From a virus, in the IMG/VR virus record IMGVR_UViG_3300037071_005902, positions 1 to 33,985 of that record: a stretch of 33,985 nucleotides of DNA; one strand, 5' to 3'. The notes beneath the pieces were generated by a model. It was not told where the DNA came from and searched no databases. It saw nothing but the letters and a program-made list of their open reading frames with translations. Below are positions 7,274-33,983 of the stretch, piece after piece. The position numbers and the translations under genes were made by a program. Every line of letters begins with the position of its first letter. Position 1 is the first letter of the stretch.

Positions 7274-7579
7274 GTGAACCCGCTGGGCGTCATCACCGGT
7301 GCGCTGCAGGCGATCCCGCCGAAGGCGCGGCAGTACGTGCTGCTGGCCTACTCGCTGACCGTGGTGGTGCTGACGATCCTCCAGCTCGTCGGTCTCGACT
7401 GGGACTGGGACATGATCTGGCAGGTGCTGGTGCTGCTCGGTGGCTACCTCGGCTTCCAGTCCGCGGCCAACGTCACGCAGGAGGCGGAGGGCGCGCGGAA
7501 GATGGTCGACGACTCGGACACCGAGACCGTCGACTGGATGCACAGTCTCAAGGAACCTGAGGAGGATCCCGATGCGTGA
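7274..7579 (+). CDS. Two-helix membrane protein, candidate holin
   Basis: A 101-residue protein starting at GTG, 2 bases after the previous stop. It has two hydrophobic segments, residues 21-41 (YVLLAYSLTVVVLTILQLVG) and about 49-65 (WQVLVLLGGYLGF), followed by an acidic soluble tail (DDSDTETVDW). Size, two-helix topology and the IPPKARQY start resemble holins of actinobacterial phages, which open the cell membrane for lysis. It lies in the virion module rather than beside the endolysin at 19499, and a second membrane protein of similar size is at 14484, so the assignment between the two is open. Confidence 0.55.
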   Translation: MNPLGVITGALQAIPPKARQYVLLAYSLTVVVLTILQLVGLDWDWDMIWQVLVLLGGYLGFQSAANVTQEAEGARKMVDDSDTETVDWMHSLKEPEEDPDA

Positions 7580-28590: not shown

Positions 28591-30708
28591 CTACTTGACG
28601 TACCGGTAGGCGGACTTGATGTCCGCCCCTAGCGGGAAGCCGTGCATCGAGCCAGCATCCGACATGATCCGCTCGAGCGCAGCCTTTGCTGTCGCCAGGC
28701 CTAGAGCACCTGGCTTCCAGTCCACCACGATCTCGTCGTGGAACTGGCCGACCAGCCCGAGCTGCCCGCTGTACTGCTGGACGAACGCCTTCACCTGCAC
28801 CAGCACGCGGAAGAAGATCTCCCGGCAGAACGACTGGGTCAGGATCCCTGCCAGCTTCCCACCGTAGAGCTCGTAGTCCCGCCACCGTCCCGTCTTCGGG
28901 TCGGTGTAGCCGGACTTCCACAGGTCGCCCGTCTTCCTCTCGCTGGGCTTGTAGTAGCAGATGTTCCTGCCCTTCGAGTAGCACCCGTGGAAGTACCGCA
29001 TCAGGACGATGCGCCCGTTGCTGTCGTACAGCTCCATCGAGATGGACTGCACGTTCGGGTCCTGACCCAGCAGGGACAGCGGTGTCTCGATCCGCTTCAT
29101 CTCCAGGCGCAGGCCGTTGGCCAGGGCGATCCTCTCGAAGGACGAGACCAGGACCACCGACTGCAGCATCTCGTTGAGCCTGGCCCAGAGCAGCACCGTC
29201 ATCGGGTCCGCCTGGCGCCAGTCCCACACCAGCTTGGTCGCCTCGCCCTCGCTCATCTCCACGCCCATGTTGGCAGCGAATGCCTGAACTGCCTCGCCGC
29301 CGGCGCCGTAGCCACAGGCGAGCTCGCCCACCTTGCCGGTCTGCCGCTCCTTCGGCAGCACCATGTCGTAGTCCATGACGTAGATCTTGGACGCGAGCTC
29401 GGAGTACACGTCGCGCCCGTCACGGTAGGCCTGGAGCTTCCACTCCTCACCTGCCATGTAGGCCAGACCCCGGGACTCCACCGACTTGAAGTCGCCGACG
29501 ATCAGCCGGCCACCCTTGTCGCTGGAAGTGAACACCTGACGGATGTTCTCCGCCAGCTTGCCGTTGTCCCACTGGACATAGGTGTCCTCAAGCAGCTCGG
29601 CCATGTCTGCGACCACGCCCATCTGCTTCAGGTTCTGCATCTGCGTCGAGCGTCCCGTGGTACGCAGCGTCTGCCCCGCACCGCAGTGCAGGTACTGGTC
29701 CTTCAGCCGATAGGAACCCGGCCCGTCCCATGGCCACTCGACCGCAGTGTCGAGGATGACCTTCAGCTTCTTCAGGCTGGAGCCACCGAGCACCTGCTTG
29801 GTCTCGAGCAGGTCCACCACCTCGGAGTAGTTCTTGATCTTCTCCTCCGAGAGGGTGAGCTCCTCGAGCTTCTTGTTCAGGCGCTTGAGCAGGGAGGTCA
29901 CATGCTTCTCGTCGAACGAGGTGGCCTTGATCCCACGGTGAGCACACCACTCCTTCATCTGCTTCAGGCTGTTGAGGTTGAGGTCGACTGCGTCGTGCCT
30001 CAGCCGGAACTCGAACAGCGCCGTCTCCTGGTTCTCCAGGTACCGGCGCTGCATCTCCTCCACCATGGCGATGTCGACGGGCCAGCCCAGTCGGTTCATC
30101 TCCATGGTGATGGCCTGGTACTCCCGCTCCGCCGACGTGCACCTGTGCAGGTACTCGTCCACGATGCGGAGCCCGAGCTCGGCATCGACGTCGCAGTAGT
30201 CCCCGTACTCCAACCACTTGTCGAGGTTGTCGTCGATCACCTGCGGGTCGAACAGCGGTGACCCGCTCTTCTCCTGGTACTCACCCGGGATGGAGAACAG
30301 CCGCATCAGGTCCTTGCCCGCGGCCACCTTGTCCACGTTCAGCAGCTGTGGAGCAGCAGCCTCCAGTCGTGGGCCTGCGCCTGCGGCACGGGCCACTACT
30401 GCGGAGTCGATGAACCTCGAGGCCGGGTAGTCCAGCCCCATCCACGACAGCACCATCTCCTCGAACGGTGCGTTATGCGCCACGATCTGATGCGAACCGA
30501 TGAGGTCCATCAGCTCGCGCCGTGCCTGGCCCACCGACATGGAGGTCAGGTCCAGCCGGTGGCGCAGGATGCCCCCGGTGGTGCCCATCCACGCACAGCT
30601 GGCGATCAGCGGCATGAACGACTTGTCGCTCACGTACCGGTGGAGCCCGTGCTCGGGCAGTGACACTGCACCGTAGGTCTCGAAGTCGAGACCGGTCAGA
30701 CCAGCCAT
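28591..30708 (-). CDS. polA: DNA polymerase, family A
   Basis: A 705-residue polymerase with a 3'-5' exonuclease: Exo I Asp8/Glu10 (LDFETYG), Exo II near Asn79 (AHNAPFEEM), Exo III Tyr171/Asp175 (YCDVD). The polymerase motifs are A (GDFKSVESR, Asp406), B (RQTGKVGELACGYG, 455-468; Lys459, Tyr467) and C (FHDEIVVD, His657-Asp658-Glu659). Residue 463, aligned with E. coli Phe762, is Leu. No 5'-3' exonuclease domain is present, as usual in phages. AAGGAGG precedes the ATG. It is the replicative polymerase of this module. Part of motif A (DFKSVESR) differs from the usual DYSQIELR. Confidence 0.95.
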   Translation of the reverse strand: MAGLTGLDFETYGAVSLPEHGLHRYVSDKSFMPLIASCAWMGTTGGILRHRLDLTSMSVGQARRELMDLIGSHQIVAHNAPFEEMVLSWMGLDYPASRFIDSAVVARAAGAGPRLEAAAPQLLNVDKVAAGKDLMRLFSIPGEYQEKSGSPLFDPQVIDDNLDKWLEYGDYCDVDAELGLRIVDEYLHRCTSAEREYQAITMEMNRLGWPVDIAMVEEMQRRYLENQETALFEFRLRHDAVDLNLNSLKQMKEWCAHRGIKATSFDEKHVTSLLKRLNKKLEELTLSEEKIKNYSEVVDLLETKQVLGGSSLKKLKVILDTAVEWPWDGPGSYRLKDQYLHCGAGQTLRTTGRSTQMQNLKQMGVVADMAELLEDTYVQWDNGKLAENIRQVFTSSDKGGRLIVGDFKSVESRGLAYMAGEEWKLQAYRDGRDVYSELASKIYVMDYDMVLPKERQTGKVGELACGYGAGGEAVQAFAANMGVEMSEGEATKLVWDWRQADPMTVLLWARLNEMLQSVVLVSSFERIALANGLRLEMKRIETPLSLLGQDPNVQSISMELYDSNGRIVLMRYFHGCYSKGRNICYYKPSERKTGDLWKSGYTDPKTGRWRDYELYGGKLAGILTQSFCREIFFRVLVQVKAFVQQYSGQLGLVGQFHDEIVVDWKPGALGLATAKAALERIMSDAGSMHGFPLGADIKSAYRYVK

Positions 30709-30718
30709 GGTCCCTCCT

Positions 30719-31432
30719 TCATAGTCCGAGGATCTCGTCCTCGTTGACGGCCGGCGGATACAGGATCCGCATGGTGGCAGGGCACATCTGTGTGCCCTTC
30801 CTTCCGCGTGAGTGCGGGTATGCAGGACAGAAGGTGCAGTGGTCGGACGGACCGAAGCTCACGTCGCCCGCCTCGATCGCAGCCTCGGCTGCCTGCGCCT
30901 CGTCCATGAACTTCTTCAGCTCGGTGGTGCTGACGAACCACGACTCGATGTTGTCGGCCCACGGCTGCAGCACATGCAGCGTGACACCCTTGGCACGGGG
31001 TGCCAGGTGTGCGAAGCAGGCTGCGTAGTAGAGCAGCTGCTCGTTGCCGACCACCTCGACCTGGATCTTCCCGGTCTTCAGGTCGATCACATGGAGCTCG
31101 TCCTGGGTGAACAGCACCAGGTCCACCTGGGTGTCCGGCTCGTTGACCAGCCACGTCGCCTTGATGCTCTGCTCCACCAGCACCTTGAAGGTGCGGGTGG
31201 CACGGAGGTCGGCGATGTAGAGCAGGGCCTCGGCCATCTTCCTGATGTCCACGCGCCCGAGCATCATCACCTTGGCGAAGATCTCGTGCATGTTGGTGCC
31301 ACGGTTGGCGGCGTTGTCCGCTGCCCGGTCCTCGACCGGTGCCTCGTAGCCGATGATCGCCTTCTCCAGGTTGGCACTCGCGTGACACGCGATGTGCCTG
31401 CCGGCCACGCTGGCGCTGAACCGCTCAGCCAT
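30719..31432 (-). CDS. PD-(D/E)XK nuclease, DUF2800/RecB-like, with possible Fe-S cluster
   Basis: The ATG at 31432 (8-base overlap with the upstream stop) gives 237 residues. The nuclease core is visible: HVIDLKTGKIQVEV (Asp and Lys of the D-x-K motif), preceded by an acidic strand (VDLVLF) and followed by QLLYYAACF. One Cys lies near the N-terminus (GRHIACHASANLE, about residue 17) and three near the C-terminus (HCTFC, then MC), the pattern of Fe-S-cluster nucleases such as AddB and Cas4. DUF2800-like proteins are often beside DUF2815 and a polymerase in phages. It likely processes DNA ends in recombination. Confidence 0.75.
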   Translation of the reverse strand: MAERFSASVAGRHIACHASANLEKAIIGYEAPVEDRAADNAANRGTNMHEIFAKVMMLGRVDIRKMAEALLYIADLRATRTFKVLVEQSIKATWLVNEPDTQVDLVLFTQDELHVIDLKTGKIQVEVVGNEQLLYYAACFAHLAPRAKGVTLHVLQPWADNIESWFVSTTELKKFMDEAQAAEAAIEAGDVSFGPSDHCTFCPAYPHSRGRKGTQMCPATMRILYPPAVNEDEILGL

Positions 31433-31817
31433 CGGAGATCCCGAGCTCGAGCTTGCGCACCTGGAACACGTTGAGATCCTCACGCCTGGTCAGCACGAAC
31501 GGAAACTCACCCCGAGGGATGTGCTTGTTCTGTGCGGTGAGCATGAACAGCGGGAAGGTGTCGGCCGCCACCTCCACCATCGTGTCGTTGCGGTCGATGA
31601 TCACGAGGATGTCGACGATGGGCTGTGCCTTGCGCAGCGTGTTGATGAGGCAGCCCTCGAAGAACACGCCCGGCTTGGAGATCACCTCGTAGGTGGATCC
31701 ATCGGTGAAGCTGATGCCCACCGTGGGGACCGGCGTGTTGTCGTAGTGGTGTGCCCGGATGGCGAGCAGGGTCTTGCCCTTGAGCTCGTCGAGCCAGTCG
31801 TTCTCGATCTGTTCCAT
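31425..31817 (-). CDS. Unknown protein of the replication operon
   Basis: 130 residues; AGAAGGAGAGG precedes the ATG at 31817. The sequence is mixed alpha/beta (TLLAIRAHHYDNTPVPTVGI, VDILVIIDRNDTMVEVA) with no Cys cluster, membrane helix or nucleotide-binding motif. It is encoded between an ssDNA-binding protein and a nuclease, so a replication-linked role is expected. No family recognised. Confidence 0.6.
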   Translation of the reverse strand: MEQIENDWLDELKGKTLLAIRAHHYDNTPVPTVGISFTDGSTYEVISKPGVFFEGCLINTLRKAQPIVDILVIIDRNDTMVEVAADTFPLFMLTAQNKHIPRGEFPFVLTRREDLNVFQVRKLELGISDG

Positions 31818-31890: not shown

Positions 31891-32565
31891 CTAGTCGAGG
31901 AAGATCTCGTCCTCGTCGACTGCGACGCCGCCGCCGAGGCGGTCGCCGTCCGCCTTGAACACAGCGGTCGAGGCCGAGGCACTGAAGCCCGGCAGCGCAC
32001 CGCTGATGAAGGCGTACAGGTTGAGCGTGCACGCCACGTACGCACCGGCGTACATGGTGTGGACCGACTGACCGATCGGCTTGATGACGGGCCACGTCAG
32101 CTGGTCCGGGTCCGGAACCAGCAGCTCGTCCTCGGTGTTGACGATGGCCTTGAGCTCCACGTCCACACCCTTGTTGCCGTTGACCTTGATGCTGGCCACG
32201 CACTCCGGGGCCAGCGTCTTGGTCTTGTCACCGATCTCCTTGATCGGGATGTACGGCGGCTGGCTCTCCCAGTCGGCGGCGTTGATCAGCTTCATCAGCT
32301 TGTCCACCTCCTTCTTGTTGAGCGCGTCCCGCTTCTCACCCTTGGTGCTCTGGTCCAGGCAGTAGGGCAGGAACTCGGTGGTGATGTGAGCGATCAGCTT
32401 GTCCAGCTGTGCCTGCTCGACGAGCAGGTTGAAGTCCGGCGTCACTTCCTCCGGCGGCTTCGGGAACTTGGACTTCTGGTTGCGCACCACCGCCGCGGCG
32501 TACACGAAGTTCGGGAACGACAGCCGTCCGTAGATGGTCACCGTCTTCGGGTTCTTCTGTGCCAT
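31891..32565 (-). CDS. ssDNA-binding protein-like, DUF2815 family
   Basis: The ATG at 32565 with AGAAAGAGGT upstream; 224 residues. The N-terminal part (KTVTIYGRLSFPNFVYAAAV) matches the DUF2815 pattern, a T7 gp2.5-like ssDNA-binding fold often found next to a DUF2800-type nuclease and a DNA polymerase. The C-terminal end is acidic with an aromatic (VAVDEDEIFLD), like the tails of ssDNA-binding proteins that contact partners. It coats single strands in replication and recombination. Hairpins on both sides suggest separate control of message level. Confidence 0.75.
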   Translation of the reverse strand: MAQKNPKTVTIYGRLSFPNFVYAAAVVRNQKSKFPKPPEEVTPDFNLLVEQAQLDKLIAHITTEFLPYCLDQSTKGEKRDALNKKEVDKLMKLINAADWESQPPYIPIKEIGDKTKTLAPECVASIKVNGNKGVDVELKAIVNTEDELLVPDPDQLTWPVIKPIGQSVHTMYAGAYVACTLNLYAFISGALPGFSASASTAVFKADGDRLGGGVAVDEDEIFLD

Positions 32566-32650: not shown

Positions 32651-33613
32651 TCAGCTGGACAGCACGTTGTAGCTGCTGGCCATGAGGATCGGACGAACCT
32701 CGTCGGCCAGCTGACCCACCACCTCGGCGAGGTAGGTGGGCTGCGACACCAGCGACACGTCCAGCACCAGGTCGATGTGACCGTTGCAGTGCGTGTCGAT
32801 GTGGTGCTTTGCCGACTGCGACGAGTCGTAGTCAGCGATGGTGATCACCGTGCCCCAGTCACGGTCGAACAGCGGAGCCAGCTCCTCGTAGTGGGTGCCG
32901 GCGTACTCCGCCTTGTCGAGCACGTCCTGCACGGAGTACGAACCCGGCGCCCAGTAGAAGCACCGGTTCGAGACGATCGCCATGTGCGCGTTCGCCGTGT
33001 AGGACAGGGCCACCACGTCCTCGATGATGCGGCTGATGGTGCCTGCCGTCACCGAACCCGACACGTCCAGGATCAGGAGGTTCTCCTTCACCCGCTCGTG
33101 GTGGATGGACGCCTGGTGCACGCCCAACGTGGGCCGCTGCTTGTTCATCTTCAGCATGGTGCTGAAGACCATGGCACCCTGCTTGCCGGGCAGCATGGAC
33201 ACCACGCCCTCGAGCTTGGCGGCCACCTCCTTCAGAGACTTGGCCACGTCCACCTCGAGCGACTCCCACATCTGCGGGAGGATCTCGCCCTGGGGCGGAG
33301 CCTCACCCCAGGTGACCTCGCCCAGCTCCACGCCGGCCACATCGCAGATGTCCACGATGTAGCCCTGCAACTCGTGGCTGTGGACCATGTCCTCCCCGAA
33401 CAGGGCGGTGGCCAGGTCCGAGTGCACCAGCTTGTACAGCAGGGCACTGACCTGGTGGTAGTCCAGGTCGTAGACCTTGCCGAAGAACAGCATGGTCTCC
33501 ACGTCGGGCAGCAACTGCTCGAGCATGGCCACGCTGAACCGGACCCCCGGCTTGACCTCGAAGATGTCGAGGCTAGAACGGAGGCTCGGAGTAGTCGACG
33601 AGCTCGTCATCAT
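32651..33613 (-). CDS. vWA-domain protein
   Basis: 320 residues; ATG at 33613 with AGAAGGG, overlapping the upstream gene by 41 bases. The C-terminal half has a von Willebrand A fold with a metal site: LLILDVSGSVT (DxSxS, 183-187), a Thr at about 240 (YAGTHYEEL) and Asp261 (ITIADYDSS). The N-terminal half is helical (HQVSALLYKLVHSDLATALF). The metal site suggests regulated binding to a partner, as in vWA proteins that work with AAA+ ATPases; no such ATPase is in the window, though one could lie to the right. The role in phage replication is unknown. Confidence 0.7.
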   Translation of the reverse strand: MMTSSSTTPSLRSSLDIFEVKPGVRFSVAMLEQLLPDVETMLFFGKVYDLDYHQVSALLYKLVHSDLATALFGEDMVHSHELQGYIVDICDVAGVELGEVTWGEAPPQGEILPQMWESLEVDVAKSLKEVAAKLEGVVSMLPGKQGAMVFSTMLKMNKQRPTLGVHQASIHHERVKENLLILDVSGSVTAGTISRIIEDVVALSYTANAHMAIVSNRCFYWAPGSYSVQDVLDKAEYAGTHYEELAPLFDRDWGTVITIADYDSSQSAKHHIDTHCNGHIDLVLDVSLVSQPTYLAEVVGQLADEVRPILMASSYNVLSS

Positions 33614-33983
33614 CTGTTCCCTTCTCTAGACGAATGGACTCCATCTCGATGAGCTGGAGGTTGAGACTGACGTTCAACTGCTGCACGCGCGTGAGCTTCG
33701 GGTTGCCGTTGAGAACGACGGCCTTGCTCGGATAGGTGGGATCCACCTTCTTGCCCGTGGTGAGGAACACGTACTGCGCCTTGCCCTGCGACATGGCCTT
33801 GGTGTTGTTGATCTGGATCACCTCAGCCAGTGCGGTGCTGTGCACCTCACGCAGCTGGGCCTGACCGATCAGGTGCCGGACACTGCACCCCTTGGTGCTG
33901 GCCGGCGACTGCGTCTTGTTCTTGAGCGAGTCGAGGATCTCGTACATCGGGAGCACCTCGGTGTCGAGCAACGCCTGCATCTC
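33573..33983 (-). CDS. Unknown protein with SSB-like C-terminal tip (5' end uncertain)
   Basis: The frame is open to the right edge, so an ATG at 33980 may be internal; at least 135 residues. The body is helical (LLDTEVLPMYEILDSLKNKT) with basic stretches (ARLTRVQQLNV-like, LEVHSTALAEVIQ-like) and the end is acidic, finishing DDDELVDYSEPPF. This tail resembles the tip of bacterial single-strand binding proteins (acidic run, then PPF-like end), which recruits replication and repair proteins. It may thus bind the same partners. No family is recognised. Confidence 0.55.
   Translation of the reverse strand, partial: EMQALLDTEVLPMYEILDSLKNKTQSPASTKGCSVRHLIGQAQLREVHSTALAEVIQINNTKAMSQGKAQYVFLTTGKKVDPTYPSKAVVLNGNPKLTRVQQLNVSLNLQLIEMESIRLEKGTDDDELVDYSEPPF

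Follow-up and report, generated by a model that had tools for sequence, protein, structure and literature searches.

The window analysed here, the whole stretch of 33,985 nt that makes up IMG/VR virus record IMGVR_UViG_3300037071_005902, closes on a minus-strand frame whose product ends in an acidic run followed by EPPF. The first-pass annotation had read this end as an imitation of the bacterial single-stranded DNA-binding protein (SSB) tip, carried by a protein of unknown type. The locus hence raises three questions: which protein bears the tail, whether the tail is selected or merely falls out of an overlap with the next gene, and whether it copies the tip of the host SSB or that of the phage.

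The ATPase gene and its neighbours

The frame that carries the tail terminates in IRLEKGTDDDELVDYSEPPF, directly followed by the stop codon at 33573-33575. The rest of the gene was obtained from IMG/VR contig L001, which shows identity with the window over 6410 bp and supplies the 5' part and the start (Table 1). The resulting 317-residue protein scores above the Pfam cut-offs of AAA_5, AAA and bpMoxR, and positions G26, P27, G29, K32, S33, D95, E96 and N132 are invariant in all 36 aligned rows; Pfam and alignment together place in it an AAA+ domain with Walker A and Walker B. The bacterial SSB OB-fold (PF00436) is absent among its Pfam families at E up to 0.1. The predicted structure has a mean pLDDT of 89.2, and the top five Foldseek rows are all NorQ chains (best 9qh4_A, E 9.3e-10, TM-score 0.43 by query length), with RuvB and other AAA+ rows close behind. 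What had been called a protein of unknown type is, judging from its sequence and predicted fold, a MoxR-type (NorQ/CbbQ-like) AAA+ ATPase paired with a VWA gene, and would presumably form a hexamer. ATPases of this broad kind are common in phages: with an E cut-off of 1e-5, an N4-type query found matches in 783 of 50,697 phage records. A plasmid search returned 14 distant records, all of them spanning less than 80% of the query. We know of no established role for phage MoxR-VWA pairs.

Relatives were collected by pattern-based, non-exhaustive searches, which gave 42 loci with the ATPase stop visible in 40. The VWA gene was matched in 40 and the phage SSB gene in 37 of the 42, the non-matching loci ending near or at the gene concerned, and the order ATPase-VWA-SSB is found in every locus long enough to show it. 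All 35 aligned rows of the VWA protein share, without variation, the MIDAS residues (DxSxS-T-D; D183, S185, S187, T240 and D261). Its residues 172-314 align with VWA/I-domain structures at middling Z values of 7.2-8.1, and Foldseek returned nothing for its model at E of 0.001 or below. The VWA gene of Microbacterium phage DoTi (gene 15; L007, 6392-7354) is annotated as 'ssDNA binding protein', probably a misannotation because the homologue of the phage SSB lies one gene further on.

The adjoining VWA gene and the NorQ match recall the NorQ/NorD and CbbQ/CbbO pairs, but here the ATPase lies in a phage DNA-replication module and carries an SSB-like tail. The same module also encodes helicase and primase genes, and the true ssDNA-binding candidate was rightly recognised in the first-pass annotation as having a different acidic tail, AVDEDEIFLD. 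Concerning the host, named relatives infect Microbacterium and Arthrobacter, and one further relative lies inside a genome bin titled Propionibacterium; the window phage probably has an actinobacterial host.

Table 1. Position of the features discussed; window coordinates except where a contig is named.
Feature	Position	Strand	Basis or remark
C-terminal 136 codons of the MoxR-type AAA+ ATPase gene	33573..33983	-	5' end cut by window end
Whole ATPase gene, 317 aa	L001/L009 3518-4471		
Acidic, predicted disordered tail TDDDELVDYSEPPF	33576..33617	-	Sequence; pLDDT; EPPF at 33576-33587
Probable ribosome-binding site of VWA gene, GAGAAGGGA (ATPase codons EKG)	33618..33626	-	Sequence; start by simple consensus rule
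VWA-domain protein, complete MIDAS	32651..33613	-	First 41 nt (33573-33613) overlap ATPase tail
Phage ssDNA-binding protein, Enc34/gp2.5 type	31891..32565	-	Conserved tip DEDEIFLD at 31894-31917
Cas4/RecB-like exonuclease	30719..31438	-	C-terminus NEDEILGL (30722-30745), phage-SSB-tip-like
Family A polymerase	28591-30708		

The tail in relatives and in the overlap with the VWA gene

The ATPase ends in DDDELVDYSEPPF, with Phe as last residue and acidic residues before it, as in an SSB tip; that of E. coli SSB is MDFDDDIPF. Residues 308-315 have a pLDDT below 50 in the predicted structure, which makes a disordered tail probable; the model shows no fold that buries it, as would have spoken against an SSB-like function. 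Such ends fall on this gene more often than by chance. Among 1642 distinct open reading frames of at least 100 codons in the 42 loci (taken from stop to stop in six frames, many of them surely non-genes), four end in PF and all four are the ATPase gene, while a single one, the ATPase of the window, ends in EPPF; with at least 80 codons the PF ends are 5 in 2226, four of them again the ATPase gene. Sorted by gene among conserved plus-strand frames with high GC3, an acidic end with Phe is present in 13 of 33 ATPases, in 30 of 30 phage SSBs and in 4 of 157 others.

The first-pass annotation had proposed to look for conservation of the last residues, and here the exact tip and its general character behave differently. 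EPPF itself is not conserved in the orthologues: it is found in 1 of the 40 ATPases, a PF end in 4 (EPPF, DQPF, PDPF and DGPF) and a motif of acidic residues with Phe in 16, being absent from the remaining 24. Four of these 16 tails end in PF and four in another terminal Phe, and in eight the motif lies a few residues short of the C-terminus (e.g. DDDVFS, DDDIFAGLSD). The nearest relatives of the window ATPase end in VNEAF and DDDVFS. In the related Microbacterium phages Burro and Arete the tips are DDDDEF and DDDEF. In a tree of 38 of the 42 ATPases, built without the last 18 residues (left out were the near-copy L032, the partial L048, and L013 and L039, whose contigs end before the stop), the PF ends require four changes, of which well-supported branches force three or more, and a Phe tail is missing from a group of 12 rows (support 90/73). 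This pattern indicates that the exact tip is labile and the acidic-Phe character recurrent; it is this character that stands, and that appears to be selected.

The motif follows the overlap of the two genes, being present in 16 of the 21 loci whose ATPase stop lies at least 14 nt inside the VWA gene and in none of the other 19, of which 17 overlap by 4-11 nt and two not at all. In these assignments VWA starts were chosen by a simple ribosome-site rule, with no such site in L015, L044 and L045, and the 65-nt overlap of L011 may be overstated. It should be noted that VWA proteins without a long overlap start mostly close to the conserved part, and that the leaders of the overlap class are rich in Ser and Thr. 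The confinement of the motif to this class is what would be seen if the tail were a functionless by-product of the ribosome-binding site, the starts and the Ser/Thr-rich leader of the VWA gene, and GATGATGAC indeed yields DDD in the ATPase frame and the start codons ATG ATG in the VWA frame at once.

In order to separate the two frames, the VWA peptides of the 21 loci were held fixed and synonymous codons redrawn 2000 times from the usage of each locus. The ATPase frame contains 85 Asp and Glu residues (60.8 +/- 4.1 expected), 19 Phe (3.3 +/- 1.6 expected) and 16 acid-Phe motifs (2.4 +/- 1.4 expected), and none of the 2000 draws was as high in any of the three, related loci being not fully independent. 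N-terminal codon usage gave again 0/2000 for all three; uniform usage gave 0/2000 for Asp plus Glu and for the motif, and 53/2000 for Phe alone. The set includes the close relatives L031/L032 and L040/L043/L046/L007, and thinning the latter to leave 17 loci gave concordant results (motif in 14 of 17, 2.1 expected, 0/2000). In the mirror test, with the ATPase tail held fixed, the VWA leaders contain 103 Ser and Thr residues for 97.3 +/- 3.7 expected, a value reached in 153 of 2000 draws; hence their composition follows from the tail. Codons in the overlap are somewhat unusual in the ATPase frame (mean log-likelihood -0.87 for -0.56 expected), which fits a by-product, but the VWA frame is odder (-1.80 for -1.03 expected), and TCT encodes 22 of 62 VWA serines there as against 4% elsewhere. 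An AT bias around the start codon was rejected as the cause, since it is ACG that rises (38 of 56 Thr) and not ACA or ACT, and since N-terminal usage gives the same result.

The window locus by itself is a weak test, a PF end being not rare there: it arises in 1575 of 20000 redrawn sequences (8%), a figure compatible with a by-product, and in 88 of 3000 (3%) when the stop is also kept. The simulations reject the by-product at the level of the family, though not for this locus alone, and overall we consider it improbable. Family simulation and mirror test together indicate that selection acts on the ATPase tail, from which the VWA leader arises as a by-product. We conclude, as far as comparison of the two frames can tell, that the acidic-Phe character is selected in the ATPase frame across the relatives, and that the tail is a real tag resembling an SSB tip, borne by an enzyme of a known kind.

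Host-type and phage-type tips

The SSB genes of the presumed host class end in EPPF in 29 of the 29 readable cases, from 30 loci (in L072 the gene was unrecognised), with ends such as YSDEPPF, YSEEPPF and DYSNEPPF; this class is that of the one genome bin holding a relative and may not be that of the window phage's host. The ATPase tail thus has the tip of that class, which bears out the SSB-like end seen in the first-pass annotation. A bacterial-type SSB (PF00436) was found in none of 13 phage records, a set that includes several fragments, hence a phage-borne bacterial SSB was rejected as the source of the host-type tip. With the bacterial SSB C-terminus the tail shares the acidic residues before a final Pro-Phe, the disorder (predicted here) and the last four residues of the presumed host class; it differs in sitting on an AAA+ ATPase instead of an OB-fold SSB, in not being kept residue by residue, and in that its binding is putative.

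A comparable arrangement of an ATPase followed by a VWA-like gene is known from the phage N4 gp24/gp25 type (Schitoviridae), but this type is distant in sequence (34.7% over 139 residues). In Roseobacter phage RD-1410W1-01 the N4 gp24-type ATPase has the C-terminus DSDPDNIPF. Eight related viral contigs were found, seven of them close (63-100% identical) with PF after a flexible linker in six, while the eighth (36%) ends in EIF; the roseophage-type loci are L087-L093. Judged by these C-termini, the roseophage type provides a second example of a phage MoxR-type ATPase that ends in PF, in most cases with no acidic run before it, and its IPF end presumably matches the SSB form of its host. Such a tail is absent from N4 gp24, from four other members read, and from phiFa, ort11 and S-TIM5, hence it was rejected as a general trait of N4-type ATPases.

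The phage's own SSB offers another model. Of the 37 loci read, 36 conserve a tip like DEDEIFLD. Only in L020 are the tip and the body of this SSB encoded in different frames (around 7423-7512), seemingly through a frameshift that may be a sequencing error. Many ATPase tails are similar to this tip, namely DEDIF (L045), DADDEVIFD (L013, before any visible stop), DDDIF and DDDVF, and so are exonuclease C-termini (DEDELFAD in L008 and L047, DEAEIFSL in L011). The tag might hence copy the phage SSB tip instead of the host's, and dock on a phage replication enzyme as in T7, where the tails of the gp4 helicase and of the gp2.5 SSB end in Phe. T7 and the present phage share an acidic C-terminal tail on a ring ATPase and on the phage SSB, but here the ATPase is of MoxR type, not a replicative helicase, and its tail is host-like. 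The gp4 tails contact T7 polymerase (PMC8472574), and the tail of gp2.5 has been linked to contacts with the polymerase and with the primase-helicase (PMC5686142). However, the window tail has PPF with a free Phe, the same as the host-class form and unlike IF[LMA]D, and of 36 exonuclease ends (28 matched by the exonuclease pattern) only two passed the pattern with Phe, the others showing Leu or other residues. A copy of the phage tip seems somewhat less likely than the host-type reading.

The exonuclease and phage SSB ends look alike, as if one C-terminal tag were common to several proteins of the module. The gene upstream of the ATPase ends in EDDPFA (L027) or GEDPFA (L028), whereas the homologues from other loci lack such an end.

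The acidic residues could also serve within the pair itself, as a ligand for the MIDAS of the VWA partner that acts as an assembly tether or pseudo-substrate, the phage SSB tip being the true target of the machine. The invariant MIDAS and the constant gene order agree with this, and the NorQD MIDAS has been proposed to grip acidic residues of its target (PMC9976466, PMC13036017), so that the machine here might act on the phage SSB tip. On the other hand, NorD MIDAS mutants still co-purified with NorQ (PMC9976466), and a MIDAS ligand needs an acidic residue and not the Phe that the simulations find most strongly selected. This role for the tail seems very improbable.

A possible docking function

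The ATPase tail looks, from its sequence, like a selected docking tag. Our preferred reading, held tentatively and with a little less than even confidence, is that it is a disordered C-terminal tag that would work like an SSB tip and steer an AAA-VWA machine. Its acidic residues and terminal Phe would fit the hydrophobic, basic-rimmed pockets that receive SSB tips, and the MoxR-type ATPase would act together with the VWA/MIDAS protein encoded next to it. As a six-membered ring, the ATPase could display up to six tips, which may direct the remodelling machine towards proteins located at single-stranded DNA or, alternatively, take those proteins away from host SSB. That the tail binds, which proteins it would bind and how the phage would benefit are all parts that we infer.

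Concerning the pockets, SSB-tip pockets hold the Phe side chain together with its carboxylate (PMC10238739). The Phe is internal in 8 of the 16 acid-Phe tails, which makes these a poor match to such pockets. Host pockets would suit the free EPPF end of the window and phage pockets the relatives with an internal Phe; for the window's EPPF, host pockets are slightly favoured over phage ones, and across these possibilities the partners of the phage's own SSB would be about as good a target as host SSB partners. A candidate partner is suggested by mycobacterial ClpX, whose activation by the SSB C-terminus depends on the terminal Phe (PMC7847540).

A broader proposal, which we regard as unlikely at present, would be that phages repeatedly evolve the SSB tip of their host lineage on a MoxR-type ATPase (EPPF in the actinophage, IPF in the roseophage), overprinted on the VWA start in actinophages. 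The ring with up to six tips would then hijack or block the SSB-centred repair hub, e.g. recombination mediators or ClpX, to the advantage of phage DNA.

No description of an SSB-like tail on a phage MoxR-type ATPase was found in a search of open-licence PMC papers. The tip of this ATPase offers a direct handle on what phage MoxR-VWA pairs touch. Should the tail bind the partners of host SSB, a non-SSB protein would here copy the hub signal of bacterial SSB, and phage control of host repair could be tested by means of a single peptide.
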